Origin: Paramacrobiotus metropolitanus
Taxonomy: Eukaryota; Tardigrada; Eutardigrada; Parachela; Macrobiotidae
Direction of reading: 5' to 3'
NCBI RefSeq assembly: GCF_019649055.1
Contig: NW_026570399.1
Coordinates: forward strand, 1-64,000
DNA length: 64,000 nt
Shown: positions 1-56,806 of the stretch, one piece after another
How positions within the stretch are numbered: position 1 is the first letter of the stretch
Layout: each line of letters starts with the position of its first letter
Program-made: the position numbers and the translations under genes
The notes under the pieces: model-generated
Told to the model about the DNA's origin: nothing
The model's database searches: none
The model's input: the letters and a program-made list of their open reading frames with translations, nothing else

Positions 1-540
1 AGCCGACCTCAACAAGAGGACCGGCTCAGCCGAAGCCACCAGTACAGGACTTGGCTATAAGAAGCGCCCTAAGTTGCGGAAGAAATCGTCGTCAACATGA
101 CAGTGCGACTCGCCGGCATGGATGACAAAGATCCAGCCCAAGCAGCCAGGACAAGAAGCACCGACTGACGTCCTCGCAACAACGAGTCCGCGAACTAACG
201 GCGGAAATCGCCGCGCTTCAAGGTCAGCAGTCAGCACCACTCGACTAGCTCGACTCAGCCGACCTCTACAGCAGGACCGGCCCCACCGACCTCAACAGGG
301 AACCGCCAGTTTCCTAAGCCAGCGGACATTAGCGACCGACCTATGTCCCCGGTTACTGAAGCTAGAATAATGTCAGCAATACCGACCCAGGAACGATGCC
401 AACAAGCGCACCACCACTTGGTTAACCTGGTGAATCAGACGATGGAACTCATCACAGAAATGAGCCCGTCGAATCTTTTGTGATTCCAACAGCCGGTTAG
501 CACAAGACTTGGACCGTGATATTTTGGCCTGGGAACTAAC
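1..540 (+). pseudogene. E1 coding remnant, helical segments in three frames
   Basis: No single frame stays open, but protein-like stretches occur in succession. One near 177-227 reads as a charged helix (QQRVRELTAEIAALQ). One at 388-483 contains QERCQQAHHHLVNLVNQT and ends in TGA. One at 122-370 is rich in Arg, Pro and Thr. The frame changes look like single-base indels in one ancestral coding sequence. A perfect splice-donor-like GTAAGT follows at 541. Function unknown. Confidence 0.35.
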
Positions 541-546
541 GTAAGT
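541..546 (+). promoter_or_regulatory. candidate splice donor in E1
   Basis: The sequence GGGAACTAAC|GTAAGT matches the metazoan 5' splice site over its six intronic bases. A donor this far 5' in an LTR element is where a subgenomic mRNA would be spliced out, and a good acceptor sits at 5,551. Pairing of the two is inference. Confidence 0.3.
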
Positions 547-642
547 TCCTCCGCCAACTCCACCATCCAGACGCGCCGAAGACCGGCATAGGCCATATAA
601 TAAGGACCTCTTCCTGGTTGGAGACGCGAGTCCGAGATTACA

Positions 643-1311
643 TTGAAGAACGGGACCGTGACCAACAACGAAACCGAAGCATCGATGCGAACTGCAGCAA
701 CGGATCGTCGAGCTCGGATCACACAAATCCAGTCGACACGTAACCCGACGGACCCTTTCGCGGTTCCACAATCCATACCGGATGACGAAATCCAGTTGAC
801 TCTGCAGACCGCGGACAGATTGATTGGTGAACTTTACCAATTACGGGACTCAACCGACCCGCAGACTCCGCAGTACTGCCAGATTGACATTAACCTGGGC
901 CACTTGGAGAACAATGCCAAGGAGGTCCGGTTCATTCTCCGACCTGAGACGCAACGGACCGTCAAAAATCAGGATCGGCTAAGGATTTTGAAAGTCAAAA
1001 TTGACAGCTTCGCGGAGGACTTCTACAAACGCAAACAACAGGAAGCAGAACGCAAGCTGAAGACTCCCGCGAAGAAGATTAAGGCGACACTTAAGCCACC
1101 GGTCCAACCTGTCAAACCATTGGAGGTTCAACAAGATGAACCAATGGATGAAGCACCGCCACTGGGAACGAACTCGAGGTCGGAGCATTCGAACAGGTGG
1201 ACATGGATACTTCTGAAACACCAACAACACCGCAGGACGGCCAACCGAAGCCAACTGCCCGACTCACTCGACCAACAACTCTGCCGGGACTCTCACATAA
1301 AGAGCCCATAG
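643..1311 (+). CDS. E1 ORF segment 1, basic/helical protein of unknown function
   Basis: An ATG-initiated frame (frame 1). The part to about residue 180 looks genuinely coding: charged helices, then a Lys/Pro-rich stretch and the acidic motif QQDEPMDEAPP. After about 1,175 the composition degrades while frame 0 becomes protein-like (segment 2). The true product therefore probably changes frame (-1) near 1,165-1,190, leaving the last 40 residues here spurious. I recognise no domain. DEPMDE or EEMD motifs recur in later segments (2101 and 4420 regions), hinting that they belong to one product. Confidence 0.45.
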   Translation: MKNGTVTNNETEASMRTAATDRRARITQIQSTRNPTDPFAVPQSIPDDEIQLTLQTADRLIGELYQLRDSTDPQTPQYCQIDINLGHLENNAKEVRFILRPETQRTVKNQDRLRILKVKIDSFAEDFYKRKQQEAERKLKTPAKKIKATLKPPVQPVKPLEVQQDEPMDEAPPLGTNSRSEHSNRWTWILLKHQQHRRTANRSQLPDSLDQQLCRDSHIKSP

Positions 1312-1610
1312 CAGATGACAGAGGTCCGAGGAGACGCCTATTCTCACCTCCACCAGTCCGAACAAAGGAACAACTGCTGGAAATCCTGAAAACGACTCCA
1401 GCGGATGAAACACAGCCGGGTCAGTCACAGAAACCGACCTCGGCAATGAAGTCAATGGTTACGTCCGGAGTCCATAAGAAGTTAGTCCGACAGGCTAAGA
1501 ATTACGACCTGGAACGGATCCTCAACGAAGCCCACCTAACAGAGGGACTGAGGCTGGGAAAGCTATCCACTGACGAGCAACAAGCACTCGGCCAGCGGAT
1601 ATATGCGTAA
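1197..1610 (+). CDS. E1 ORF segment 2, Pro/Thr-rich then helical
   Basis: Frame 0. It opens with an MDMDTSETPTTPQ-type low-complexity stretch, then PSPPPV-like prolines, then two amphipathic helices (KEQLLEIL; ILNEAHLTEGLRLGKLSTDEQQALG). It is open upstream of the listed start (LEVGAFEQ in the same frame), consistent with continuation from segment 1 by a -1 frame change. It stops at TAA (1608-1610), but frame 2 is already open across that stop. Unknown function. Confidence 0.4.
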   Translation: MDMDTSETPTTPQDGQPKPTARLTRPTTLPGLSHKEPIADDRGPRRRLFSPPPVRTKEQLLEILKTTPADETQPGQSQKPTSAMKSMVTSGVHKKLVRQAKNYDLERILNEAHLTEGLRLGKLSTDEQQALGQRIYA

Positions 1611-2410
1611 TCCAGGACAGGGATAAGGCTCTACGCCGATTGATGTTTGTGAGGTGCGGAAGACAGGCATTACGACAGCTTCCGTTGGACGCGGCCATTA
1701 TTAAGCCAGCCCAACTACTCCGACACCCTCGCATCAACCCTGCAGCCTACACGTTGGAGATGCCCCCCCCTCAACCCGGTCAACAGGTTACCGAGAAGAT
1801 TCGGTGCATCATGTCCGACAGTAGCGACGAATCTGACCACAACTACAGAAAGGGTGCTCAGATCGAAGATGACCCGACCTATGACGACGACTTAACCTGG
1901 CAAGAGACTCTGCTGATGGATGCACAAACAAGCTCCAGGTCGTCATATGGATCTCGACCGGCAGAATCAACGCCGAGAAGGAGTAGGTCTCCGGTGAAAC
2001 AGATCTCACCGAACCGGGCAGCGTCTCAACCGGCAACGATGCCGAGTCAACCTCCGAAGGAACAGCCACGTAGGTTTACGCCCCGGAATACCCCAACTAA
2101 ACCGAAACAGACCCCGGAGGAGATGGACACGACGTCTCCAAAGGAGGTCGGACCTGAATCACAGAATGAATCGACTTCGGAACCAGCCAAGTTGGTCATT
2201 GACGAATCTCGGACAGATGAGCCGGCAACAGCTCCGGGTAAGAGAAGCAAAAAGAAGCAGCAACCGGCTGACGATTTCTCGCGAGAATACCACGATGACC
2301 CAGCCTTGAAACACGTTCAGGACCCGACCAGGTCGGAACAGGATGCGAGTGTGGACACTGCGTTCAGAGGACAAAGAACTCTGGAACTCATTGAAGTCAC
2401 GCCGTGCTAA
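1610..2410 (+). CDS. E1 ORF segment 3, disordered S/P/T/E-rich
   Basis: Frame 2, open from about 1,601 across the stop of segment 2. The first 50 residues are basic and helical (DKALRRLMFVRCGRQALRQL). The rest is disordered and rich in Ser, Pro, Thr, Lys, Asp and Glu, with the motif PEEMDTTSPKEV. A roughly similar EEMEATSQKDV occurs in the N-terminal Gag of E2 (51,872-52,513). That could be shared ancestry or shared composition. Near 2,367 the protein-like frame shifts to frame 0 (EDKELWNSLKSRR) for about 110 nt, then returns to frame 2. Confidence 0.4.
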   Translation: MQDRDKALRRLMFVRCGRQALRQLPLDAAIIKPAQLLRHPRINPAAYTLEMPPPQPGQQVTEKIRCIMSDSSDESDHNYRKGAQIEDDPTYDDDLTWQETLLMDAQTSSRSSYGSRPAESTPRRSRSPVKQISPNRAASQPATMPSQPPKEQPRRFTPRNTPTKPKQTPEEMDTTSPKEVGPESQNESTSEPAKLVIDESRTDEPATAPGKRSKKKQQPADDFSREYHDDPALKHVQDPTRSEQDASVDTAFRGQRTLELIEVTPC

Positions 2411-2464
2411 CCTCGTTGGAAACACCGACGCGGTCCGTAAGGAACATGAACGCCTACACAAAGG

Positions 2465-2683
2465 ATGGCTGAGGTCATGAAAAGAATGGGAGAACGATTC
2501 CGTGCGGAGAAGGTCCGACTTGCGGCACAACAACAGGCCGCCATGACCCGACCGAAACTCTTCGCACCGGACCCGAAGTCGACCTCCACGACAACACGTC
2601 AATTGGTGGTCAAGATGAAGAACCCTCAACCAGTAAGGGAACCTTCCGTGCAGATCCAGGACGAATTACTGGATTCAAAGTGA
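2465..2683 (+). CDS. E1 ORF segment 4, basic helical
   Basis: Frame 2, 72 codons from ATG. It is a continuous basic helix (MKRMGERFRAEKVRLAAQQQ) followed by a Pro/Ser/Thr linker. Its TGA overlaps a GTG in frame 1 where segment 5 begins (GTGA), so the two may be joined by a frame change or by stop/restart. No known domain. Confidence 0.35.
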   Translation: MAEVMKRMGERFRAEKVRLAAQQQAAMTRPKLFAPDPKSTSTTTRQLVVKMKNPQPVREPSVQIQDELLDSK

Positions 2684-3087
2684 TCAACTCGGCTAACTCG
2701 GCTAAGTTGTCACGGAGGGAGAAAAAGGCTAAGAAAGAAGCCAGAAAGGAAGCTGAAAAGGAGGTGACCAAACAACCTCCGAAGGAACCGACTAAACCGA
2801 GGTCGGACCTTTCAATTAAGACGCCGAAACCTAACCCGGCCAAACGGCATAAGTCCTCCGACGACCTTGATACCTCAGACGCTGGCCCACAGAAGCCGGA
2901 CAAAAAGGGGAACGCCAAGGAGGAATTTGACTACGACGCAGCCAAACAGCGGATGCGAGAACTGATCGCCAGAGCAGGTACTGCGGCGACCAAAACGGAG
3001 GCCGAAAGACCACACGAAAGGTCTAAGCCGACGCCTAAGCCACCAAGCAAATCGAACCTCTACGTCCAAGAAAGACTCGGACGATGA
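2680..3087 (+). CDS. E1 ORF segment 5, Lys-rich
   Basis: Frame 1, 135 codons. It starts with a strongly basic Lys/Glu/Ala helix, resembling a nuclear or nucleolar targeting helix in composition only. A Pro/Lys linker and a short helix (AKQRMRELIARAGT) follow. From about 3,062 frame 2 becomes the better coding frame (TSKKDSDDESEKPSEP), so the last codons before TGA at 3,085 are probably not used. Confidence 0.35.
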   Translation: MINSANSAKLSRREKKAKKEARKEAEKEVTKQPPKEPTKPRSDLSIKTPKPNPAKRHKSSDDLDTSDAGPQKPDKKGNAKEEFDYDAAKQRMRELIARAGTAATKTEAERPHERSKPTPKPPSKSNLYVQERLGR

Positions 3088-4150
3088 ATCAGAGAAACCC
3101 TCGGAACCCGACGATGAGATCTCCGACCATGGAGAAGCCGATCCATACGAAGGATTCAAAGGCGATCGAAATGAAGAATGGAGTCACGAAGAAGACACTG
3201 ACGCTTCTGAATGGCCAGCCCCTGATGACGTACGTCAGCGGCTACCCGACGCTCAACCTGGCGACCGACCAGTCGGATTTCATACGGTCCGACTTCACGT
3301 CGAAATAGTCCGAAGCGTCAGGAATGCCCGAAACGAAGGCAGAGATGTGTACCAGTCATTGGTGCGCGACCTCTCGACCAACTTAAGGATCGTAGGCCGG
3401 ACCTCACCTGGCCACAAGAAACTTATGATGGCTATAGTGGCATGGGCCTTGGACTTCGGATTAGCCGTAGCGGTCCACCGACAATGGGGACGGACCGCCG
3501 AGTTAATCGCACCGGACATTATCCAAAAGCTCAAGAGCGCCGCCGCCAGAGCACTAGACGACCCGCCAACGAGAATCGTCAGGTGCATCGGATACGCACG
3601 AAACCCTCGCGGATCCTCCTTACTACATATCGCCCGTATATACAACGTTATGTACGAGAACAGCCAGGGCAATATTGACGTCATAATGGGCCTCTTAGGA
3701 CCTGTCATCGCAACGATGGTGGCAGAGTTTTCCCTTCATACGACCAACGCGGAACGCGATTTACCACTTCGGTACACAGTACCTCGGTTCATACCGGAGC
3801 AGCAACGACGCGATTTCAAACTCCGGATATCCTATATCAACCTACAGTCCTCACCCGAAGGTACTGAAACGGTCGTCGAGGAGTACAGTGAGTCGGATGA
3901 ACAACCATCCGGCGAGGCGGCGGATATGTTGAACATTGCACGAGCGTCGGGTATGTCGTCACAGAAACGACTACCAACCAACCGACCTCGGGCACCGTTC
4001 GAACCGGTAACATATGTCAACACCGCCTCGGCACCAGCAAGGGCAAGTGCAACTAAGCCAGGTCGGACTACAACCGGACGTTTTGCGGTGAAAGACACGC
4101 ATCTCTTCCACCGACTCACCTATGGAAACTTCACCGGCTCCGGAAGGTAA
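3062..4150 (+). CDS. E1 ORF segment 6, novel globular domain
   Basis: Frame 2 is open without interruption for about 360 codons. The first 85 residues are acidic and disordered. From about 3,347 there is a compact hydrophobic-patterned domain of about 190 residues with motifs GHKKLMMAIVAWALDFGLAV, RIVRCIGYARNPRG and DVIMGLLGPVIATMVAEF. A Ser/Thr/Pro tail follows. Its all-helical look is compatible with a capsid-like or nucleoprotein-like fold, but I see no family signature. The TAA stop overlaps a donor-like AAG|GTAAGA at 4,147. The next ORF begins at the ATG at 4,122, overlapping by 29 nt in another frame, an arrangement reminiscent of gag-pol overlaps. Confidence 0.5.
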   Translation, partial: TSKKDSDDESEKPSEPDDEISDHGEADPYEGFKGDRNEEWSHEEDTDASEWPAPDDVRQRLPDAQPGDRPVGFHTVRLHVEIVRSVRNARNEGRDVYQSLVRDLSTNLRIVGRTSPGHKKLMMAIVAWALDFGLAVAVHRQWGRTAELIAPDIIQKLKSAAARALDDPPTRIVRCIGYARNPRGSSLLHIARIYNVMYENSQGNIDVIMGLLGPVIATMVAEFSLHTTNAERDLPLRYTVPRFIPEQQRRDFKLRISYINLQSSPEGTETVVEEYSESDEQPSGEAADMLNIARASGMSSQKRLPTNRPRAPFEPVTYVNTASAPARASATKPGRTTTGRFAVKDTHLFHRLTYGNFTGSGR

Positions 4151-4973
4151 GACTCTACGGAAGAGTCAACCTAAACCGCTGAAATCAAGGAAGAAGTCGG
4201 TGAAGACCAAGGAGAAAACGCCCTCTGAGGAAGAAGACGAAGATGAAGAAGAAGATGAGGACGATGACGACACCTATCAAACACCAGAAGGGTCGGAGGA
4301 CGACGATAACGACGATGAGGATCAACCTCCACCAGCTTCGGCACCACAACAGCAGGGTGAACCGGAGATTTCTGACAATCAGAACGAACCACCGGCCAAC
4401 GACGGCAACGAAGCTGACGAGCCGATGGATGAAGATAGTGGTGACGTCTACGTTCCTCAGAACTACCGTCAACAAGTACGGTTAACACCAGACTCCGACC
4501 CGAATCAACTCCTCCAGGAATGGAACGAGGATACCCAGGAAGTCCTACCGTTACAGATTCCTAGCCTACCGAAGGTAAACGTCAAATACCCGACGGTGGC
4601 CATTAAACGTGCTCATACTCTACCCCCACGCGTCTCGGAATACGACCCGGGATGGATGTACACCTTTGCGGCCTTGAAGGCCCTGGCGACCTGTGGACCG
4701 AAGTTTGCGACACCGAAGATCGCATTCCAGCTCCTCAGGCACCATAAGATCGGTGACATCGGTGGAGGTTGGAGGCAACTAAGCCAGAGCAACGTATACC
4801 GGTACTGTAACCTTGGGTACAACGAAAGTAAAATCATACGGACATACACCAGCAGCAAGCGGATGTATTACGAGTTCCACCGGAGAAACGAGATCCGGCG
4901 CCGACCACTTACGAAGGTTGGGTACATGCCATCGAAGCGTGTATGGAAATGTCGTGGCACCCGGAAGGACTGA
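4122..4973 (+). CDS. E1 ORF segment 7, acidic N-terminus plus conserved-looking domain
   Basis: ATG-initiated, frame 0, overlapping segment 6. The N-terminus is Lys/Ser/Pro-rich, then comes a run of Asp/Glu (residues about 35-70) and the motif EPMDED. The C-terminal 110 residues are globular, with Trp, Tyr and Gly in a fold-like pattern (YDPGWMYTFAALKALATCGP; GDIGGGWRQLSQSNVYRYCN). Near 4,905 the coding signal moves to frame 2. The listed C-terminal residues after about 260 are then likely spurious. No database family recognised. Confidence 0.45.
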   Translation: METSPAPEGKTLRKSQPKPLKSRKKSVKTKEKTPSEEEDEDEEEDEDDDDTYQTPEGSEDDDNDDEDQPPPASAPQQQGEPEISDNQNEPPANDGNEADEPMDEDSGDVYVPQNYRQQVRLTPDSDPNQLLQEWNEDTQEVLPLQIPSLPKVNVKYPTVAIKRAHTLPPRVSEYDPGWMYTFAALKALATCGPKFATPKIAFQLLRHHKIGDIGGGWRQLSQSNVYRYCNLGYNESKIIRTYTSSKRMYYEFHRRNEIRRRPLTKVGYMPSKRVWKCRGTRKD

Positions 4974-5308
4974 CCCGCGGCGAAGTTCTACATCAGCTGG
5001 TAGCTAGGTTCGAATTTGAATGGGAAGCCAGAAAACCCCAGCTAGTCGACCCGAAGTACAAACCCACGAACAGAGTGAAAGGGGGCGAAAAGTACATGCT
5101 GGGCGACGACTTGGACTTCGTTCTCAACAAGGGATTCTTCCAAAAGAGATTTGGCATCAACCAGACTCGGGAAGGAGAACGATACGAAGCCCTTAACCCA
5201 TCAACACACCGACACGGACACTTACCGAAGCATCCACCGACCCCGGAGCAACAGAATGAGTCAACTGACTCTCTACAGGTGAACCGGGTGGAATCGACTA
5301 ACGGATGA
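4900..5308 (+). CDS. E1 ORF segment 8, C-terminal part of segment 7
   Basis: Frame 2, open from before 4,900 (PTYEGWVHAIEAC), so it reads as the continuation of segment 7 after a -1 change. It contains an aromatic/charged domain (LTRGEVLHQLVARFEFEWE; GDDLDFVLNKGFFQKRFG) and ends in a Pro/Gln/Asn-rich tail at TGA (5306-5308). After the stop comes a 135-nt gap holding three hairpins with CACA-type loops. Unknown function. Confidence 0.4.
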
Positions 5309-5356
5309 GGAGACATGGAATACGTCAGAAGAGTCGTAGAATCGACCTCTTTCATG

Positions 5357-5445
5357 AGTACCACACAAGTACTTGTGATCACCGACCTCCCCTCGGACAC
5401 AACAGAATGTCCCGACCTACCTCATTAGGCACCACATAAGTGCCT
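5357..5445 (+). repeat. three consecutive hairpins with CACANAA-type loops
   Basis: The hairpins are AGTAC-[CACACAA]-GTACT at 5357-5373, GGACA-[CAACAGAA]-TGTCC at 5395-5412, and AGGCAC-[CACATAA]-GTGCCT at 5427-5445. Stems differ but are complementary and loops are alike. They separate two coding blocks and match the larger array at 7.9-10.4 kb. Confidence 0.6.
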
Positions 5446-5531
5446 TGGACCAGCTCGAGAACCGACCCGGCCCGACCGTTGTAATCATAGGACGTAACAC
5501 GTATAGGCTAACGAATCCGAGAAACGGATCG

Positions 5532-5551
5532 TCTAATTTTTCTTTTAACAG
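5532..5551 (+). promoter_or_regulatory. candidate splice acceptor before the second E1 coding block
   Basis: A pyrimidine-rich run, TAATTTTTCTTTTAACAG, ends at 5,551. It is unusual in a T-poor element. The frame that opens immediately after it (frame 2) is closed by TAA at 5546-5548, inside the putative intron. This is what is expected if the downstream ORF is reached by splicing, as env-type ORFs are in retroviruses. Confidence 0.4.
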
Positions 5552-6187
5552 CCGCGAACGGAGGCGTACACGGCGGACTGCCGACATTGCAGAGAGAACT
5601 CAACTCCGCAGGGCAACAGACTCCCATGCGCGGACTGTATCATTTCTTTCTCGGATGAACATACCCCACAAGTCGGACGTCGTGACGCGATGCAAGCAGC
5701 GGCGTTGTACATAAACGTCGTCGCTGGGAACATCAGCGCATACCGACGTTTAGCCCGCAGCGAACGGCTAATTAACCAGTTACGGGCCTACGAACAGGAT
5801 CATTTGTCGGAAATCCAACGCAACCGCGCTTCCGACCCCGGATGGACTAACACAGTGCCACCGACCCTGACGCATCGACTTCTGGAATATCGTCAGCAAC
5901 AGGACCTGCGACGCCAGGAGGAGGACCGTGCAAAACTGAAGGCAGTCAACGAAAGAATTGCCACAATGAAGGTCCACCCACCACCAACGAAGCACGAGCC
6001 ACAAATCACTGTTCACTTACAGCAGCCCACACAAGGCCGCTCAGAGTCAGAACAGGTGCTTCATGACGTGAGAGAAGTGATAGTCGGAGACATTTACCGA
6101 CCTCTTCAATCCGCATCAGTCCAAATGATGATGCGACAAGATGACGGCACCATGAAAATGGTCACTCTTTACCCTGCAACGGAGAAC
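5552..6187 (+). CDS. E1 second coding block, zinc-finger N-terminus
   Basis: Frame 2, open from the acceptor at 5,551. Near the start are two CX2C pairs 12 residues apart: CRHC (codons at 5579 and 5588) and CADC (5627 and 5636). Together CX2C-X12-CX2C is a plausible treble-clef or RING-like zinc site. A long charged helical region follows (RRLARSERLINQLRAYEQDH; QQDLRRQEEDRAKLKAVNER), then a Val/Gln-rich segment ending near 6,185. There the frame moves -1 to the ATG at 6,190. An alternative ORF at 5445-5714 in frame 0 is probably a shadow, because it lacks the Cys pattern. Confidence 0.45.
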
Positions 6188-6189
6188 AG

Positions 6190-7695
6190 ATGGCAACGAT
6201 CCCACAGAAGGTCGTTCCAGTGGTCACACAAACCCAGCCATCCGTTCCCCAGCAGATTCCTCAACCTGGACCTTCGGCACAACCAGTTGCCCCGTCGACG
6301 ACTCAACAGCAGCGCCGACTTGCCAAACCATTGGCCGGACATGACCTTCGCCATAAGCTCGGACATGACGCTCGACACAGAATCGAGGAACGACGAGCCT
6401 CTGCTGGACATGGCAGCAATGAAGCGACCAGACCTTCACCTGGCAAACGGTCAAGTCCGGAGAAGACAAGTATGGGACTGGTCGTCGACTCAACTAGTAA
6501 GTCGAAACGGAACTTTGTCCCACCCGAACAGCAACCAGAACCGGAAGCCCACATGGCGGAACCGGCAGATAAGCCCGAAGAAATGGACGTCGAAGTGGCA
6601 AATCAGATGGCTTCGATGCCAACAGTGCAAGTGCCAAGCCAAGACGACCCTCGCTACGACAACGCCCGACGACAGGGAGTTGAGGTCGTTATGCCACATC
6701 CGAACGAACGGACAAATTACATTATGAACACCCTAGGATATGAGGAGCGACACCGACCACAGATTTGGCGGATGGTAGAAAACCTACGTCAGTTCCTCAT
6801 CCGATCTGGATTCCAGACCAGATTCCAACTGAACAATTGGATGGGTGAATTCAACATGAACGATCATCCTAACGTGGATCACCCAATTAATCGAGCAAAC
6901 GCCTTGCCTTCGGTGCATGACCCGGCACTGTTGGACACACCTCTGTCCACACCGGAGAGGACGAGTCTAAGTCAGCTCGGACCTCAGGAGTACTCGCGCG
7001 ATCAACTGGAGAGCGTGGCTCAGTTTGTCATCACCGACGCCCACCCGGCCTTCGTAATCGCAGCAGCTCGAGCGGCCCTGGACTTATTGCAGTACTTGCC
7101 GGAAGAAGAACCAGGACCAGAGGACCGCAACGCAACTATTTTACGGTATGTCTTCGCCGCAAGGTTGGGCAACTACTTTTGCCATTACACCCTGTGGGGA
7201 GCACGCCGAACCGCCCACATACCACCAGAACTGGATACAATTGTCGCACAGCTTGGCTCACCTATGCGAAGCATCATCTTGGCAGTCTGGTTACGCGACC
7301 TCCTTTACATACAGGAACGGCACGCGTCCAAGTACGCCTTTCGGAAGGACTTTAAAGATCCTGATGATGATGCCGCCGAATTCGTGAAATGGTACCGTGA
7401 AGAAAAAGCGTTACCTAGCGGATTCACTTCCCGACCTTACGGAGAAGGGATGTCGGACGACTTGGCACCCGGTGCGGTACCTAACGCACACAAACTCCGT
7501 AGAAAGGTCCAGAAAGCCAAGAAGGCGCGAGCGGAACACCCCGGTCAGGAAGACACCCCACAACAGAGTGGGCAGCCACCAGCAACATGCAAACCAGATG
7601 TCTTCCGGCGCCTTGGTAAACCACCGAAACCTGACGATGAAGAAGATGAGGATTACTTCGGTGGAGACCCGCCGATCTCAGTCCCCTTGGGATAA
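6190..7695 (+). CDS. E1 longest ORF, 501 codons, unknown protein
   Basis: ATG-initiated, frame 1, the longest intact frame of the element. Residues 1-150 are Pro/Gln/Ser-rich and disordered, with the PEEMDVEV motif shared with other E1 segments. Residues about 170-410 form a globular helical domain (RTNYIMNTLGYEERHRPQIW; AAARAALDLLQYLPEEE; SPMRSIILAVWLRDLLYIQE). The C-terminus is basic, then acidic (DDEEDEDYFGG). It resembles in layout, not in sequence, a Gag-like or nucleoprotein-like polypeptide. The TAA is followed directly by a 24-nt perfect hairpin. It probably continues from the zinc-finger ORF by a -1 frame change. Confidence 0.55.
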   Translation: MATIPQKVVPVVTQTQPSVPQQIPQPGPSAQPVAPSTTQQQRRLAKPLAGHDLRHKLGHDARHRIEERRASAGHGSNEATRPSPGKRSSPEKTSMGLVVDSTSKSKRNFVPPEQQPEPEAHMAEPADKPEEMDVEVANQMASMPTVQVPSQDDPRYDNARRQGVEVVMPHPNERTNYIMNTLGYEERHRPQIWRMVENLRQFLIRSGFQTRFQLNNWMGEFNMNDHPNVDHPINRANALPSVHDPALLDTPLSTPERTSLSQLGPQEYSRDQLESVAQFVITDAHPAFVIAAARAALDLLQYLPEEEPGPEDRNATILRYVFAARLGNYFCHYTLWGARRTAHIPPELDTIVAQLGSPMRSIILAVWLRDLLYIQERHASKYAFRKDFKDPDDDAAEFVKWYREEKALPSGFTSRPYGEGMSDDLAPGAVPNAHKLRRKVQKAKKARAEHPGQEDTPQQSGQPPATCKPDVFRRLGKPPKPDDEEDEDYFGGDPPISVPLG

Positions 7696-7718
7696 CAGGT
7701 TCCCACATGCGAACCTGT
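7695..7718 (+). repeat. hairpin abutting the stop codon
   Basis: ACAGGTTC-[CCACATGC]-GAACCTGT, an 8-bp perfect stem whose first base is the last base of the TAA stop. The loop contains the CACA core seen in neighbouring hairpins. Confidence 0.6.
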
Positions 7719-7753
7719 GTCCCCGACTTCAACAGTAAAGGAAGGGACACCTA

Positions 7754-7829
7754 GCCGAGAAACGGCGGAGTCGAGAATCGACCTGGCGGAGAAACTGCCC
7801 AGCTGAGAAACAGCACCATCGAGAAACGA
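7754..7829 (+). repeat. five mini-hairpins with AGAAA loop, about 16-nt spacing
   Basis: GCCG-AGAAA-CGGC (7754), GTCG-AGAAT-CGAC (7770), GGCGG-AGAAA-CTGCC (7785), GCTG-AGAAA-CAGC (7802) and TCG-AGAAA-CGA (7819). Loops are constant. The stems all differ and remain paired, with one G-U. Start-to-start distances are 16, 15, 17 and 17 nt. Confidence 0.7.
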
Positions 7830-8151
7830 CGTTGAAACACGGAACGGACATTCTTTGGAACAGCAGACGTGAACCACGAATAAGCCAGAAGAGCTAACCA
7901 CTTAAGTTAGCCGGATTCTTCGGCTAGACCCGGAAACGTGTGGTCAAGACCGACGGTGATTCGGTTCTTTCACCGTACCGGTACGTCCTCCGAGGAATCC
8001 CCTGGAATGAACTGAGCAACCGACCTCAGTTCCCCAGCATGGCTTGAGCAGATCGATAACCACATCTGCTTTGACCGGAGACAACAGACGCCCCGGCTTG
8101 CTAACATAGCATATCGTGAACCACGTTCTGCTACCGAAGAAGATTACTCCG

Positions 8152-8800
8152 GCTAACCGACTCTGGAGAACAGACCGAGAGGATTACGCTAACATGGTGT
8201 CGAAAACGTTGTCACGTTCTCGACACCATGTTCGCCTGGCACCCGTGGCCGACTTTGGGACCGGGTAACCGACCAGTAACTTCCATCACCGCAGACAGTG
8301 GTATCCTCATCGGCCCGCAATGTCACATGGCTCGGAATTGACCACAGAAGTCAAAACCGACCTGTTACGACATGACGCAATGAATTGACCGAAGACAGGA
8401 CCAAAGAACCGGATCCCCGCCCAGACCTTACTACCTCAGTCGACCACGGAAGTCGACCATTCCCGAGGTAGAAATCGGAACTCTTACTACGACTCGGATG
8501 ACTTAACCGACCACAGAAGTCGGTGAAGTTTCAACTCTACATCCGAAGGATAAGTCGTATAGAAGGTTATGCCCAACGCAGACCGTGTTGGTTAACCACG
8601 ATCTACTACCTCAGTTGACAACGAAAGTCAACCACTCCCGAGGTAGATGATCGGAATCAAGACACTCCGGCAACCGGACTCCGGAGTATAAACCAGCGAG
8701 GATTCCGCTAGCATGGCCCGAAACACGGCTTTACGGCGTGTTCCAGGCCATGCTTGCCAATGCACCCATGGCTTACTCCGGCAACCGAACTCCAGAAGTA
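8152..8800 (+). repeat. ACTCCGG hairpins and two long GC-rich hairpins
   Basis: ACTCCGG-type stems with loops CTAACCGACT, CAACCGGACT and CAACCGAACT lie near 8152, 8666 and 8773. A long hairpin at about 8,192-8,231 has arms ACATGGTGTCGA and TCGACACCATGT. Another at about 8,711-8,754 has arms AGCATGGCC and GGCCATGCT enclosing a CACG/CGTG inner pair. Two hairpins of the same layout in one leader-like tract suggest duplication followed by divergence. Confidence 0.55.
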
Positions 8801-8894
8801 AGAACTAGGAATCAACGGACCGTAACAAGGCGGACTGTGTCAACTACGACCTGCTACCTAGAATCGACCACAGAAGTCGATTTGTCAACGGTAG
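8431..8894 (+). repeat. three composite hairpins, outer CTACC/GGTAG clamp
   Basis: At 8431-8471 and 8606-8646 an outer stem CTACCTC/GAGGTAG encloses a CACAGAA-type inner hairpin. At 8854-8894 the outer stem is CTACC/GGTAG. The outer arms are constant while the inner stems differ (GTCGAC/GTCGAC, GTTGAC/GTCAAC, AATCGAC/GTCGATT). Total lengths are all 41 nt. Confidence 0.7.
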
Positions 8895-9809
8895 CCGACC
8901 TTAGAAGTCACCATTCGACCAACCGGCGTCGACTCGACGGAAGCATATGGAAATTACAAACGGGATGGCTTTATCGTAGCCTTTACTGACCACGGAAGTC
9001 GGTAATGGTGACCGCAAACCGCGACACCCGACTACGATTTTAGTCTGGACGGATTCTCCGTTTGAACCCGGATCTACAGGCTCTCAACCAGGAACCTGTA
9101 CCCGGAGTCCAACCGCAGTCTCCCCCGGCGGATATCGGATAAACCAACCGATTCACCGGTGACCACGACTACGCGCGGCTTGACCGTGCTGCCATTACCT
9201 GAAGAGGAACAGCGACGGTGATTTGGCTACTGACGTACCAACGACTCCGCCGCGACCTGCTTCCCCATGTCTTAATGGAACATCCTAGGCAAACCGTGTT
9301 AGGACACACGGCTTGCACCCCCATACAGATCCCTACGGACGTGTGATGTCTTCCCCCAACAGAAGCGGCAAGGCGTCACAGGTTCGCGGAACCGAACGAA
9401 GGAACTCCAAACCAGGGAAGTGAAGTGATCTGATTTTACCTCAGTTTGCATGTTGCATGGGGATGGGAACGGGCAGTCTGACATAAGTCGGGGCCCGACG
9501 CACAAACGAACCAAAGAGATTACCTGGTTAAAAGGGACCACAGAAGTCCTTTGACGCCATAAGTAATCAGCAGTGTATGCTGAATGGCCAACGGACGCCA
9601 TAGAACAGCCAAATTCGACGGAACTCGGACCCGTCCAGAGGCAAAGACGCGAGCCCGAACCAGGGCATGTTAGAGGCACCAACCGGAATTCGCTCCAAAA
9701 AAACGACTTTGAGGAGCTCGGATGGACGCCCGGAGGCTTAGAACGACCTCTTAACGGACGGAACCGACCAGGATGAAGAATCATCGACCTTGAGTTGGAT
9801 AACATTGTG

Positions 9810-10159
9810 TCCGACCTCAGGTCGGATATGTGAAGCAACCGACAACAGGTCGGTGGATGGAGACGCCATCCAAGACGTTTACGGAAAACGACTTCCGGAC
9901 GGATGAAATCGACCTCAGTCGACCTGCGAAACGGGATCACCGACCTCGGGTCGTACAGCATTACCACCGATAACAGGTCGGTGAATGATCACCAAACTGA
10001 AGATTGGAACTGGAAACGACCTCGAAATGGACGAATTCGACCTAACGGGACTTGTTCGGCCCCACATGGGCCTAAATAACACGAGTTACCGAGGTCGACC
10101 ATGGAGGTGCGTTATTACCGACCTCAGGTCGGATAACATTATGACCGACCTCAGGTCGG
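9810..10159 (+). repeat. CCGACCTCAGGTCGG palindromes and AACAG-loop variants
   Basis: TCCGACC-TCA-GGTCGGA at 9810-9826, and CCGACC-TCA-GGTCGG at 10118-10132 and again at 10145-10159. The related ACCGAC-AACAG-GTCGGT is at 9838-9854, and ACCGAT-AACAG-GTCGGT at 9966-9982. These give the block its striking CGACC/GGTCG word bias. Confidence 0.65.
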
Positions 10160-10649
10160 ATATCCATCCCAACCGCCAACAGGTCGGATGACAACAGTGA
10201 ATCACCAATGGATGGACGGAATAACAAACTCCGACCGGACCTTCGAGCCAGTTCGCATCGGAAGTCATTACCAGGCTCGTGGTAGCAGATTTAACGGTTT
10301 TAACCGACCACACTTCATCGGCATTACCACTTGGCGACCACAGAAGTCGCACGACACAAGTACGGTTTTGTCCGACCTGACCTGAACTTCGGAATTCGGG
10401 ACTTAGCCGGATTCCATGACCGCTGGTTAAATTTGCCAGTAGGTCGACCTTGGTCTGACGACCTTGGTCCATTCCCCTTACTTAGAGAGGATGCTTCGGC
10501 ATTCGCAAAAGCGACAGTGCCTCTCTCTCCGGAACGGATAAAGTACGAGTCGGACGTAAGTGTCAGCCGTGCTTACCCGACCTCGGACGAATTTACCGGT
10601 TATGTGAGGTAACCCGGGAACCGACGCCCCGGACCTGATATACCGGACT

Positions 10650-11149
10650 GCATTTAGACAGGAGACCCCGTGGAAACTCAAGACCCGTGGACGTCATCCT
10701 AGTCGGAATAAGCCCCCGGACAGATCTCTTTTTAGTATTTTTATACATTTTCTAACAAACGGAATTGTATTTTACTTAGAATCTCTAACCAGATCTGTTT
10801 TGTATTTACTTTTTGCTCACTGGAATTGTGATTAAACTTTATTACTTTTTTAACCTGTCATTAAACTTTTCTCCTACTTTCTCCGCGAGCCAACAGAAGC
10901 AAGATGCCTGCCAACAGACGCGATACCGGTCCAACAACGAACCCCGAGCGGCTTCCAGATTTTCGGCCGTGAGTTGCTTGCCTCTCATGGATCTGGAGGT
11001 GAAGGATGGGACGGTCAACAAGACACCGGACTCCCACTGGAAGAGGACGCGTACCGGCGACCCCACCTGGGTCGACCGGAGAGGTGCGATCCTGGTGCGG
11101 TACTGAGTCGGAGCATCCTCGCAGGAGCTCGGATTCCCGCCCAGAGGCA
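10650..11149 (+). other. AT-rich switch and pre-LTR segment of E1
   Basis: At about 10,710-10,735 the T-poor block ends abruptly and about 150 nt of T-rich sequence follows, then GC-rich sequence to 11,149. ORFs here on both strands (for example 10,813-11,106) look like shadows. No polypurine tract directly abuts the proposed LTR start, so the boundary at 11,150 is tentative and the LTR could begin earlier. Confidence 0.35.
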
Positions 11150-11601
11150 TGTTAGAGGCACGACAGCCTGCGTGATAGATACGCCACTTTGCGTATGCGT
11201 ATCACTGCACACATGCTGATTCGCCCTCTCTTGTACGTACGTGAGTGGCTGCACTGCACTCTCCGCCTATGCGGATACACCGCGGGCGCACTCACTGAGC
11301 ATACTTGCTCTCTCGCTCCTCTCTCTCGCTGTATGACTCAGCGTATATTCGCTCGCGTTGGATACGAGTCCAGTCTGCGCACACACATTCCATGGGTCTG
11401 GACAGCGTGACGCCGTTGCCGCCAGCACATTTCTTTCTCTACATTTTCATTACGCTCTAGAACTAGCTCGCAGCAACTTGACTGCTCACTTTTCTGCCAG
11501 ACATTGGCTTTTGTTGTGTTTTCCCCGCAATCACGCGGCATTTGCTCCACTTTATTTGTACAATAAAGTCACCTGTGAGCTCTCTGTGCTTGCCTGTCAC
11601 A
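11150..11601 (+). repeat. probable 3' LTR of E1
   Basis: Begins TGTTAG and ends GTCACA (TG...CA). It has AATAAA at 11,562-11,567, 34 nt before the end, and pyrimidine-rich promoter-like sequence. Directly right of it a family A repeat resumes in mid-sequence (TAATCATAG). The 16-mer GGCATGTTAGAGGCAC at its start (11,146) also occurs inside E1 at 9,664, which is unexplained. The solo LTR at 38,119 also begins TGTTAG. The 5' LTR is outside the window, so this cannot be confirmed here. Confidence 0.45.
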
Positions 11602-24670: not shown

Positions 24671-26101
24671 ATGCTGTCGGGAGGAAGAAAAGAGGACACC
24701 GGTAGATTGATGAGGTTCGAGCCAGCCGCGATGACCTGGTGATCCTGGCAGTTCCGATACAAGAACTACGTGAATGTGCACAAGGTCACGGACACGGCCG
24801 AGCAAAAAGCGGTGTTGATGGACGCCTTAGGCGTGGAGGCGCTGGAAATTCTTATTTCCATGTGCCTGCCTGGTTCTCCGGACGACTTTACCGCTGGCCA
24901 GCTGGCAGATAAACTGGAGCAAGCGTTTGTGAAGAAAACGCTGAAGGAGACGGAGTGGGCGTTGTACTTTAGGATAAAGCAGGAACCTGGGGAGACGCTC
25001 CTGGAGTTCTCCAGTAGACTGCGCCGGAAGGCGACGGTGGTTGGGTTCCCTGCGACAGTCCTGGAGCAGAACATGATGGCTGCATTCACCAATGGACTGG
25101 CGAACGAAAACACCAGGCTGCACCTGATGTCGAAGACACGCACCAAGCTGGAGGAGTGCTTGGAGATATGCCAACTGTACGAGCTCGCCCGGGGTACAAA
25201 GAAAACCACAGAGGCGGTGGATGTAGCGAGGGTCCGCGATGGGCGTGGCCCGGATAAAGGTCATGGACCCGGTGGCCGTGGTGATAGGCCGAAAGAGCGA
25301 GAAGGTCAGAGCGACAACCGCCGCGGCAGAAGCGGCACTGGGGAGAGAGACCGTGATGGCGCAAGCCAAACAGCACGGTAGCCATTCAGTGGCGGATGTT
25401 ACGGATGCGGAGAGCGCGACCACCGCAAGGCCAAATGTTGGGCAAAAGATCTGCGGTGTGGCAACTGTGGCAGGTATGGCCACATTGCCAGGGCCTGTCG
25501 CGCCGACCCGAAGGAGAAAGAGCAACAGAGGGATGGTGCACGGCGCACCAATCTGATAGAAGAAGAGTTTGATGTCCTACAGGTCAATCAGAATAGTGAT
25601 TTTGACTGTATGGTTAAACATCAGCCTAGTCACACCAGGCGAGCAAGCAGCCACCCCTGGAGATGCAGCATGGACGGAGATGCTGTTCTGGATACTCTGC
25701 TGGGCGAGTTGGCTGACTTGCGTATAAAGGTGGACGAAATTACACGACGGAGCACAGAAGCGACTCCATGATACTGGAGACCGGTGGAGCATCGGCGATA
25801 TCAGCCGGAGCAGAACCGGTGCGTGGAAGAACTTGCGGCGACCGAACTGCCAGAAGACTGCGACGTTCAGCAAAGCGTGGTGGCAGTCAGCGATGGCGGA
25901 AACACTGACGGGGTCAGTAACGAACAGCTAGAAAATGATTTTCTGCCAATCGGAAGCGTACCCGAGAAGGAAATGGAAACGGCTTCGAGCAGACTGGTTC
26001 GACTGGTTAAGACTCGCAGCCAAATGGAGCGGGAGAAGAAACGGAAAAAGAAGGAAGCATTGAAAGATACCGATAATATTTTGGATTTATTTTCTGATTA
26101 A
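24671..26101 (+). pseudogene. Gag of the gag-only element, three in-frame stops
   Basis: One frame (frame 2) runs from ATG at 24,671 to TAA at 26,101 with no indel but three internal stops: TGA 24,740, TAG 25,379 and TGA 25,769. The longest piece (24,770-25,381) is a Ty3-type Gag capsid: DTAEQKAVLMDALGVEALEI, the MHR-like LKETEWALYFRIKQEPGETL region, then a LEECLEICQLYE helix. After the TAG come two perfect CCHC knuckles, CYGCGERDHRKAKC (25,397) and CGNCGRYGHIARAC. The C-terminal part is acidic, then basic (MEREKKRKKKEA). No protease or RT. All three stops can arise by one C-to-T change (CGA or CAG). Confidence 0.8.
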
Positions 26102-39550: not shown

Positions 39551-39957
39551 AGTATAGCCAACCCTGTTTCGAATTTGGAATTCTATAGGTGGAGTGGTTT
39601 TCGCTGTTTTATTTACTTTTGTGCCATTTGCACCGGTAAACAGTTATACCAGAAACCACAAGAAGACCGAATTCTGCATAGTTCTGCTTGCGATTTTGCT
39701 TGGCAGCCAATTTGCCGACAATGCGCCGCCCATTGTAATTTGCTCCTAAAAAGCTCCCCCTCCACCTCTTGGCCAAAAAATTATTAAATTAGTCTCAAGG
39801 GTATATTTTTAAGGTGGCGCGTCGAAGCTCCAAAGGATATCGCAGAAGTTATTGATATCGTTTCAAATCCCAAAATACAGCACTGTCCGTTGACCCACAC
39901 CCTTTATCTCCTTGTACCAATCCGGCCGTTTGCGTGACAATGGAATTTTGGTATGTG

Positions 39958-40646
39958 CTTAAGGGAAGTGGGCCGGTACATGGTACCAAATTCGTGTACA
40001 TGCACGAAAACTTACACTTTCGCGCACTCTCAAACACATTTTTGTTTTGGTTTATGACGTTTTGTAGCCATAAGAATTGTATACACTGGCGTGAAAACCG
40101 TTTGTGCGCGCAACATCCGGTTCGGGAGTTATGGCTGCTGCAAAATTCCAAAAAGTTTAAATGCATTCAGGTGTACCAAAAGTCTCATTATAGACCGATC
40201 TCTCTCAAATTTTGCACGTAAATGCGCATGTCTATGAAGATCGTTTTTACACCGATCCAGACTTCCATGATTTTTTTCAAATTTTAAAATGAATTTTAAA
40301 ATTTTTGAAATTCATTTTAAAATTTGAAAAACATGCTAGAACAGTGGATCGGTGTAAAAACGTTCTTCGTGGTTATGTGCATTTACGTGCAAAATGTGAG
40401 GAAGATCGGTCCATAATGAGACTTTTGGTACACCTGAACGCATTTAAACTTTTTGGAATTTTGTAACAGCCATAACCCCCGAACCGGATGTTGCGCGCAC
40501 AAACGGTTTTCACGCCAGTGTATACAAATCTTCTGGCTACAAAACGTCATAAATCGAAACAAAAATGTGTTTGGGAGTGCGCGAAATTGTAAGTTTTCGT
40601 GCATGTACACGAATTCGGTACCATGTACCGGCCCACTTCCCTTAAG
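39958..40646. repeat. near-palindromic foldback (689 bp)
   Basis: Arms of about 340 bp run from CTTAAGGGAAGTGGGCCGGT at 39,958 to its complement ending at 40,646. They meet at an AT-rich centre near 40,302 (TTTTAAAATGAATTTTAAAA). The arms carry scattered differences (for example TACACTTTCGCGC versus the complement of GCGCGAAATTGTA), so it is not a simple assembly mirror. No TSD found. The mirror ORFs on the two strands are by-products of symmetry. Confidence 0.75.
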
Positions 40647-40649
40647 TAC

Positions 40650-48504: not shown

Positions 48505-48830
48505 AGGTGATCCCCCTTATTGTTCACCTGGTGCTCGCAGTACTATTCTGCGGCAGTGGTCCTTTGCCCATTTGTGATGGCATCTTTTGAGCCATCTCAC
48601 CTGCAGTCCGATTCTGCGGTGACTTCGCAGTACTATTCTGCGGCAGTGGTTCTTCCCCACCTGTGATGGCATCTTTTGAGCCATCTCCTTCGATTGATGT
48701 GGTGGCATCTTATTAGCCACCTCCTTTTGTTAATGTGACGGCATCTTTTGAGCCGTCTCCTTTTGCTGATGTAATGGCATCTTATGAGTCATCTCCTTTG
48801 ACCGTTGTAATGGCATCGTATAAGCCATGT
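48505..48830 (-). repeat. 36-bp-period hairpin array with compensatory stems
   Basis: Given on the plus strand: GATGGC-[ATCTTTTGA]-GCCATC at 48,576 and 48,665, GGTGGC-[ATCTTATTA]-GCCACC at 48,701, and GACGGC-[ATCTTTTGA]-GCCGTC at 48,737. Then ATGGC-[ATCTTATGA]-GTCAT at 48,774 and ATGGC-[ATCGTATAA]-GCCAT at 48,810. The last five are spaced exactly 36 nt. Also CGCAG-[TACTATT]-CTGCG at 48,536 and 48,626, and AGGTGA/TCACCT at 48,505-48,529. It lies just after the Gag stop. Confidence 0.8.
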
Positions 48831-55969: not shown

Positions 55970-56806
55970 TTTTAGAGCTCTTGATATGGGCGCGTAACGA
56001 GACTGTAGAGCAGGGGTGCTGACGGGTCGCCCTGATGAAGTCCTTTTTCGGATTGGATAATATGCTCCCCGAAAGCCAAAGAAGTTGGCTTACCGTAGCA
56101 CTGATTAAAAAACGGGAAATATTCTGGCATTTCGGTTTTAACCATCTCTAGGATTTTATGCCGATAAACACAATTAAAGGCGTTCGCGAAATCCAACTTA
56201 ACAAGTACACGGCATTCACCGTTCTGATGAACAAACATGCGCGAAGTGTGTACGGCAGCCTCGGCTCCCCCTTTCACACCGAATCCAACTTGAAATGGAA
56301 ACAGCTTTTCTACCATACGCTTTTTCACTCTGCAACAAATGATTTTTGATGCGATGCGGCGGATCGTATTACCGACAGCAATGGGGCGAATTCCGCCGTT
56401 CGGTTTTTGAAGTCCAGTAAGCGTAGCGCCATACAGCGAGGGGAGGATTTCCTCAGGTACATCCCCCGAGATCATCTTCGTCACGGCACCTGCAAGTGCT
56501 GAGCAAAGTCTTTTTTCGTGCTCGTTCGTTCCGTGTCCTATCAGGTCTTTCACGTGTTGAGGGCGCATACCAAACAGACCTCCTGAGGATCCGTGCGGGA
56601 ATGACCGGACGGCGTCGAGTATTTCATCAGCGGTAACGTCAGAGATCAAGAATTGTGCTTGGGGCTTGTCAACCGGTGTCGCATGGGCACACGCCCGAGG
56701 ATGCTTCTCCTGCAACAACAGCGCCGATTCTGGGGTTGGGCGAATAACGTTATCCGTCGAGCATAAGGCTTTAACTGCGGCTGAGATAGCACAGTCCTGG
56801 AACTTG
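55970..56806 (-). pseudogene. LINE reverse transcriptase, fingers/palm
   Basis: Open from the truncation point (FQDCAISAAVKALCSTDNVI) through RT motifs: KPNGGIRPIAVGNTIRRIAS (motif 2 region), VLVKLDFANAFNCVYR (motif A, with catalytic Asp), and SEKGLHQGDPSAPLLYSL (motif B). After motif B the frame is lost near 55,985. Motif C follows in another frame (SFLDDLTSGG, about 55,925-55,955), then a TGA. RT synthesises cDNA at the nicked target. This copy cannot make a complete enzyme. Confidence 0.85.

Follow-up and report, generated by a model that had tools for sequence, protein, structure and literature searches.

Constant-loop hairpins dispersed along a giant Ty3-type retroelement of the tardigrade Paramacrobiotus metropolitanus

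The first 64,000 nucleotides of contig NW_026570399.1 of the tardigrade Paramacrobiotus metropolitanus (assembly GCF_019649055.1, forward strand; hereafter the window) begin with the 3' portion of a long terminal repeat (LTR) retroelement, E1, comprising reading frames up to position 7695, a noncoding tract and the 3' LTR. We found that E1 carries a family of small hairpins in which a 7-nt loop, most commonly CACAGAA, and the type of its closing pair are conserved on stems that differ from site to site. The hairpins are dispersed along the element in a single orientation, and in one group of sites their stems covary between copies. The interpretation we prefer, with somewhat less than even confidence, is that an RNA-binding protein encoded by the element, in the first place a Gag with a zinc knuckle, recognises these scattered sites in packaging or assembly of the RNA.

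The genome searched amounts to 169.8 Mb in 533 contigs, of which C179 is the window. The E1 copy on contig C5 (C5:1068221-1095629, 27.4 kb; the C5 copy) has LTRs of 95% mutual identity (TGTTAG...TGTCACA, with TG..CA ends) flanked by GTTA on both sides. With about 26.5 kb between them, it lies past the internal-region threshold of more than 20 kb for giant LTR elements and well beyond the traditional length limit of about 10 kb, both as given in the cited part of PMC6431247. An 870-aa frame, whose sole Pfam match is a coiled coil below the cut-off, is followed by a frame with a CCHC zinc knuckle (CHFCKFGNHPQARC); the pol domains, all above the cut-off, come in the order aspartyl protease, reverse transcriptase, RNase H and integrase (H2C2 and rve). 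Judged by its LTRs, target duplication and Pfam domain order, E1 is a Ty3-type LTR retroelement, in agreement with the first-pass annotation of this DNA, which had described an LTR element.

One loop module along one strand of E1

In the window we located nine family loops between 7893 and 10350, the number that the first-pass annotation had given as a minimum, together with the four stem pairs it had cited; of three further hairpins that it had placed near 5.36-5.45 kb, two have the family 7-nt loop and the third, read by eye, an 8-nt loop (Table 1). Its description of an array of the 3' tract, however, proved too narrow, as the family extends across the whole 27 kb. In the C5 copy 20 of 31 strict hairpins (loop [CA]AC[AG]NAA with at least four perfect Watson-Crick pairs) lie inside reading frames, counted stop-to-stop with at least 200 aa, two in the leader, one between frames and eight in the tract.

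Table 1. Features of E1 in the window, with positions of the family loops
Feature	Positions	Strand	Loop position	Basis or remark
E1 portion within the window, up to the 3' LTR	1-11149	+		homology to C5 copy along length, LTR match; extends past window start
Hairpin CTCAT-CACAGAA-ATGAG	448-464	+		reading-frame region; retained in C5 copy
Hairpin GGAT-CACACAA-ATCC	716-730	+		loop CACATAA in C5 copy
Hairpin GTCGT-CACAGAA-ACGAC	3955-3971	+		retained in C5 copy
Hairpin AGTAC-CACACAA-GTACT	5357-5373	+	directly after 5361	between frames
Hairpin GGACA-CAACAGAA-TGTCC, 8-nt loop	5395-5412	+		by-eye reading
Hairpin AGGCAC-CACATAA-GTGCCT	5427-5445	+	directly after 5432	between frames
Last long reading frame, 501 aa	6190-7695	+		reading-frame call
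Hairpin CTCGA-CACAGAA-TCGAG with outer stem	6371-6387	+		within reading frame; folded
3' noncoding tract, last frame to LTR	7696-11149	+		reading frames, hairpin and homology data
Hairpin GCTAAC-CACTTAA-GTTAGC	7893-7911	+	7899-7905	most other copies GCCAAC/GTTGGC; folded
Hairpin TTGAC-CACAGAA-GTCAA	8338-8354	+	8343-8349	stem search, covariance model, fold
Two-storey hairpin, outer CTACCTC/GAGGTAG, inner GTCGAC-CACGGAA-GTCGAC	8431-8471	+	8445-8451	covariation in group A1; fold
Hairpin ACCGAC-CACAGAA-GTCGGT with outer stems	8506-8524	+	8512-8518	stem search, covariance model, fold
Two-storey hairpin, inner GTTGAC-AACGAAA-GTCAAC, outer CTACCTC/GAGGTAG	8606-8646	+	8620-8626	group A1 member; fold
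Hairpin AATCGAC-CACAGAA-GTCGATT with outer stem	8862-8882	+	8869-8875	stem search, covariance model, fold
Hairpin TTACTGAC-CACGGAA-GTCGGTAA, one T.G pair	8983-9005	+	8991-8997	model, fold; covariation support none
Hairpin AAGGGAC-CACAGAA-GTCCTTT, one G.T pair, with outer pairs	9532-9552	+	9539-9545	model, fold
Last hairpin GCGAC-CACAGAA-GTCGC, outer ACTTG/CAAGT	10334-10350	+	10339-10345	genome pattern search, model, fold
3' LTR, TGTTAG...TGTCACA	11150-11601	+		92% to 5' LTR of C5 copy

The density of hairpins in the tract is clearly above that of dinucleotide-shuffled sequence, the comparison put forward in the first-pass annotation. For loops of 3-10 nt, positions 7693-10650 hold 45 hairpins when a stem of 5 or more pairs is required, 17 at 6 or more and 7 at 7 or more; 60 shuffles gave means of 18.1, 4.1 and 0.9 and maxima of 26, 10 and 3, respectively. 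The excess of stems of at least 5 is weaker in the frames (17 versus 11.5 shuffled at 5690-7692; 36 versus 26.2 at 1-5000). Stems of at least four pairs, G.U permitted, accompany 8 of 9 CACN[GTC]AA words in 7693-11148 and 7 of 21 in 1-7692. A census blind to loop sequence over the 26.5 kb of the C5 copy, handled as four separate pieces, gave 65 hairpins that combine a 7-nt loop with a stem of 5 or more pairs, whereas 10 shuffles averaged 16.3 and reached 22 at most; loops of 5, 6, 8 and 9 nt were up 1.8- to 2-fold and those of 3 nt 1.4-fold. The commonest 7-nt loops were CACAGAA (11), CACATAA and AACAGAA (3 each) and CACACAA, AACGGAA and CACGGAA (2 each). CACAGAA was also the commonest in a further copy, on C27, with 53 such hairpins versus 12.9 shuffled; loops of 3 and 5 nt were likewise threefold up there, and TCA is among the commonest 3-nt loops of both copies.

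Stems occur on one strand of one family. In the C5 copy they were found at 14 of 26 CACAGAA words (0.1 expected) and at 31 of 112 [AC]AC[AG]NAA words (0.4 expected), with none at the six words of the opposite strand, none at the 67 and 61 [AC]AC[AG]NAA words on the two strands of 36 kb of adjacent window DNA, none at four CACAGAA words of host DNA and none at 15 words, both strands combined, of a second element, E2. Genome-wide, GACCACAGAAGTC has 299 matches and the reversed word 7; the last tract hairpin with its flanks occurs at 40 places (33 in the window or retrieved loci, 7 outside them) and its reversed pattern at none.

A covariance model, R1, built from the 31 C5 hairpins and run on the window, had 20 matches at E 0.2 or lower, all on the plus strand within E1; three more followed at E 1.6 to 3.5, two of them outside it. 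Applied to the loci that surround the C27 copy, the model gave 52 matches up to E 2. Those within the copy are all on the plus strand; eight on the minus strand lie upstream (L026, L027), where a reversed family LTR fragment sits. Since R1 was trained on a related copy, these matches show confinement to one family and one strand and are not an independent discovery. An Rfam search of the window at the gathering score, the only setting used, returned no match. The candidate of a distant subfamily (P0002, 31% identical) that retains the hairpins was dropped; P0002 matched none of L011, L021, L042, L043 and L044.

The variation within the module was followed at ten tract sites in 34 stretches from 33 places (L011 and L042 overlap), giving 184 distinct sequence windows; site s11, with the same copy and distinct-window counts as s10, was dropped and s6 rows identical to s5 were removed. 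Deviation from the majority was lowest at loop positions 2 and 3 (0.5%), 7 (1.1%) and 6 (2.2%) and at the closing pair (0.5 to 1.1%), and rose to 4, 10 and 6% at loop positions 1, 4 and 5, to 4 to 8% at stem pairs 3 to 5 and to 13% in the flanks. The closing pair is pyrimidine-purine in all 31 C5 hairpins and, under a wider loop rule, in 25 of 26 in C5, 21 of 21 in C27, 12 of 13 in the window and 211 of 217 in 31 other tract loci, compared with 37 of 73 among other 7-nt-loop hairpins of the C5 and C27 copies. Tract hairpins have, in addition, an outer stem, usually across an internal loop that is short on the 5' side and longer on the 3' side, as in CTACCTC-A-GTCGAC-CACGGAA-GTCGAC-CATTCCC-GAGGTAG. 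When ten window hairpins (nine of the tract, one coding) were folded singly, all had an open 7-nt loop and pairs beyond the inner stem, with z of -1.9 to -4.4, values that favour structure since the ends were picked at stems. A different kind of hairpin, CCGACCTCAGGTCGG and CCGACAACAGGTCGG, with very short loops, lies within a 74-nt direct repeat at 9780-10187 of the plus strand of the tract.

This anatomy bears on what might read the loop. Constant-sequence loops of seven nucleotides are a common design in loop pairing, and the hairpins could pair with a tRNA, a small RNA or a distant part of E1. We consider this very unlikely, because loop positions 1, 4 and 5 vary and pairing leaves the fixed type of closing pair unexplained. 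The complement TTCTGTG, examined as a partner inside E1, has no plus-strand match in the window portion of the element. With a loop that is not self-complementary and varies at these three positions, recognition by a protein appears to fit better than pairing with another RNA.

Stem changes and pairing between sites and copies

Most stems within the C5 copy are dissimilar between sites, yet 88.7% of their cells are paired (50.1% when shuffled) and 73 cells are doubly changed (19.4 shuffled), figures that describe rather than test the family, the set having been preselected for at least four pairs. Between copies, at the ten tract sites and with no selection for pairing, there were 82 changes in 1113 cells. 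Single changes number 65. The 17 double changes, of which 16 are Watson-Crick, compare with a permutation mean of 6.6 double changes (maximum 12 of 500) and with 1 to 6 for slid partners. One leader hairpin is also compensated between copies, as CTCTCC/GGAGAG in C5 and CTCTTC/GAAGAG in C27.

The clearest between-copy signal came from group A1, whose 37 sequences are 96.7% paired (92.1% shuffled) with 36 doubly changed cells (12.6 shuffled; at most 4 with slid partners). The pairs that change alternate between C-G and U-A in the outer stem (22 and 11, plus 2 U-G), and in the inner stem between U-A and C-G and between G-C and A-U; outer-stem covariation was examined in A1 and at two outer pairs of group A2, the site near 8990. 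In a custom-made simulation that preserves the tree and the changes per column, the observed sum of G of 110.2 surpassed the maxima of 86.3 and 93.4 on two trees (0 of 400 on each). The signal rests on three pairs, each matched in 1 to 7 of 400 simulations, the ten others barely varying.

Thus the check across copies proposed in the first-pass annotation, an excess of compensatory over non-compensatory changes, had a divided outcome: compensated changes exceed the null, whereas single changes dominate in number. The same holds for its claim of a selected RNA structure, which is borne out by the conserved loop, the paired changes between sites and the covariation of A1, and not at the 8990 site.

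The hairpins upstream of the tract also seem to be constrained. Compared between C5 and C27 or the window, they differ at 8 of 170 arm positions and 116 of 680 flank positions (p 1e-5). Arms of stemless words of the same kind are below their flanks as well (52 of 600 versus 300 of 2400, p 0.009), because ungapped matching favours the centre. In the direct comparison with the arms of stemless words the difference falls short of significance (p 0.10), and constraint on the coding hairpins is likely but short of proven. Of 23 upstream hairpins, a counterpart was recognisable for 13 in C27 and for 4 in the window, both of which hold part of the region.

Candidate reader and role of the hairpins

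We infer that the module functions at the level of RNA and is read by a protein, that this protein would be Gag and that its job would be packaging or assembly. One recognition module would recur about thirty times along the full-length plus-strand RNA of E1: the loop Y-[CA]AC[AG]NAA-R, seated on an inner stem whose sequence varies freely and, in the tract, lifted further by the outer stem beyond an asymmetric internal loop. What is recognised would be the loop with its closing pair, the stems serving merely to present it; a constant short loop, a fixed type of closing pair and interchangeable stems are as expected of a structure that a protein contacts at the loop and at its base. The likeliest reader would be encoded by the element itself, foremost Gag with its CCHC knuckle. 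Many sites in one orientation on one RNA, coding sequence included, point to handling of the entire RNA, and many bound sites along 27 kb could allow it to be selected, condensed and packaged.

Among such whole-RNA jobs packaging is favoured because viruses offer a direct parallel: in them, assembly is promoted by numerous stem-loops that share a motif and are dispersed over the RNA (PMC6281560; further papers on dispersed viral packaging signals are PMC3593212, PMC4751978, PMC7793301 and PMC7612645). As far as the cited parts of these papers go, E1 resembles the viral systems in its many stem-loops with a shared loop motif and variable stems, coding sequence included, and differs from them as a 27 kb LTR retroelement, known here from sequence alone, with a 7-nt loop, a fixed type of closing pair and two-storey stems. 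Of the retrotransposons, Ty3 requires the NC domain of Gag for RNA packaging, the principal known packaging signals of Ty1 lie near its 5' end, and for both the packaging sequences of the genomic RNA and the Gag sites are not precisely defined, according to the review PMC4974528. E1 is likewise of Ty3 type, and its Gag-type frame contains a single CCHC knuckle; it has in addition a repeated hairpin code, for which the cited sections of that review give no counterpart. Like Burro of planarians and Ogre of plants, E1 exceeds 20 kb and has coding capacity besides gag-pol; unlike them, it has extra frames 3' of pol, then a structured tract, and a hairpin family, of which the cited part of PMC6431247 makes no mention. 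GOLLD, ROOL and OLE are likewise large structured RNAs of mobile or bacterial contexts, and E1 is set apart from them by one small module that is repeated, dispersed and partly coding (PMC12286853, in the part cited). A literature search at the level of titles and beginnings of abstracts, with subscription papers mostly outside its scope, turned up no LTR element with hairpins of this kind; for CACAGAA together with hairpin and loop it returned no paper.

The same anatomy (one orientation, full length, constant loop) would be expected if the hairpins bound an element or host protein for export, stability or protection of the long unspliced RNA. In that case they would correspond, in dispersed form, to Rev/RRE or transport elements. 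Our data do not separate this explanation from packaging; no candidate protein for it was identified, and we regard it as rather unlikely.

Several results weigh against recognition of a selected RNA structure. The C5 copy has gaps of up to 3.75 kb with no strict hairpin. Two of five measures in A1, doubly changed pairs (4 versus 3.0) and pair types (9 versus 9.2), are at the level of shuffles and are no higher in group A3 either, and in the 17 sequences of A2 no pair is doubly changed and the score is no better than shuffled. Folding z is alike on both strands (-2.14 and -2.13), and G.U is not favoured over A.C: single changes comprise 25 G.T and 24 A.C, shared types 7 and 5, and private types 10 and 15, respectively. 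Conservation of the coding hairpins is not significantly higher than that of stemless words (p 0.10 for arms, 0.25 for the loop). Moreover, since 15 of the 20 in-frame loops of C5 share frame position 2 (3 are at position 1 and 2 at position 0), peptide constraint may contribute to the in-frame hairpins, yet it cannot account for all sites.

Both folding z, equal on the two strands, and a G.U asymmetry, absent from the between-copy changes, thus failed as evidence of an RNA strand. These two results favour sites that act as DNA, either spaced palindromic arms for a dimeric DNA-binding protein, for which the Su(Hw) site array of gypsy is a comparable case, or hairpins in single-stranded cDNA. 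We nevertheless think such sites improbable: the spacer is conserved and the arms vary freely, all 31 C5 sites have a single orientation, many are located in coding sequence, and the asymmetric two-storey structure covaries. Many E1 copies are probably decaying insertions, and the neutral single changes they add on both strands alike could mask a G.U asymmetry.

The near-equal conservation of stemless words and the frame shared by most in-frame loops, together with a number of tract modules that differs between copies, would also suit a by-product, in which a few ancestral hairpins were spread by duplication and a repeated peptide added others in the frames, with no present function. This is the explanation to which we give the least credence, given that stems unlike between sites are paired (in a set preselected for at least four pairs), five in-frame loops are in other frames and 11 hairpins outside frames, A1 covaries in the tree-aware simulation, and variation at the loop positions is far under the level of the flanks.

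E2, neighbouring features and implications

On the minus strand of the window, E2 has six tandem loops near TCAAAAGAT at 48576-48828, five paired and one broken, on stems such as GATGGC/GCCATC, GGTGGC/GCCACC and GACGGC/GCCGTC, directly after a Gag-like frame whose CCHC knuckle is CQNCGFENHNAQGC (49343). With the closing C-G pair required, 25 hairpins of this type with ATGGC/GCCAT and ACGGC/GCCGT stems occur at five other places of the genome, and GGCTCAAAAGATGCC has 92 genome matches with up to one mismatch, versus 4 for the reversed word. Each element may have a loop of its own, for which E2, as a local tandem array with few stem types, is a lead and not a proof.

About 9 kb of frames lie 3' of pol in E1, and those scanned matched no Pfam family above the cut-off. 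The protein of 6190-7695 had two homologues among 7993 scored candidates, both of P. metropolitanus (59% and 31% identity), and the top three of 78 matches of the integrase frame were also P. metropolitanus proteins (53, 60 and 38%). The C27 copy appears to lack the block of frames that the C5 and window copies have between the integrase region and the tract, because its tract homology (from L021:3057) directly follows that to the integrase frame (L021:565-3007). Behind the C5 copy, the end of the tract and the 3' LTR are tandemly duplicated at 99.9% identity (L012 5008-6801; L025 1138-2931). The plus strand has a strong excess of A over T at window positions 1-10000 (AT skew 0.21 to 0.32), and T exceeds A at 48-52 kb. 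Elsewhere, the window holds a Gag-like frame at 24770-25500 with a weak PNMA match (below the cut-off) and two CCHC knuckles downstream, a long inverted repeat at 39955-40649 (347-nt arms, 91% complementary, 1 nt spacing), and on the minus strand at 55972-56718 a reverse transcriptase frame of another element (RVT_1, above the cut-off).

Taken at its broadest, our proposal is that the RNA of E1 is overwritten with about thirty loop sites read by Gag and packaged through these dispersed sites instead of one 5' signal, and that, with E2 carrying its own loop on covarying stems beside its own knuckle Gag, each element family may have a private code; we advance this still more tentatively than the role of the E1 hairpins by themselves. 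The principle resembles that of known dispersed packaging signals, and a Ty3-type LTR element as the carrier would be new. Candidate sites in E1 can be listed singly from sequence, with their natural loop and stem variants, and the recognition of a very long retroelement RNA thereby becomes directly testable through binding and probing. If the proposal is true, dispersed packaging signals would extend from RNA viruses to LTR retroelements.

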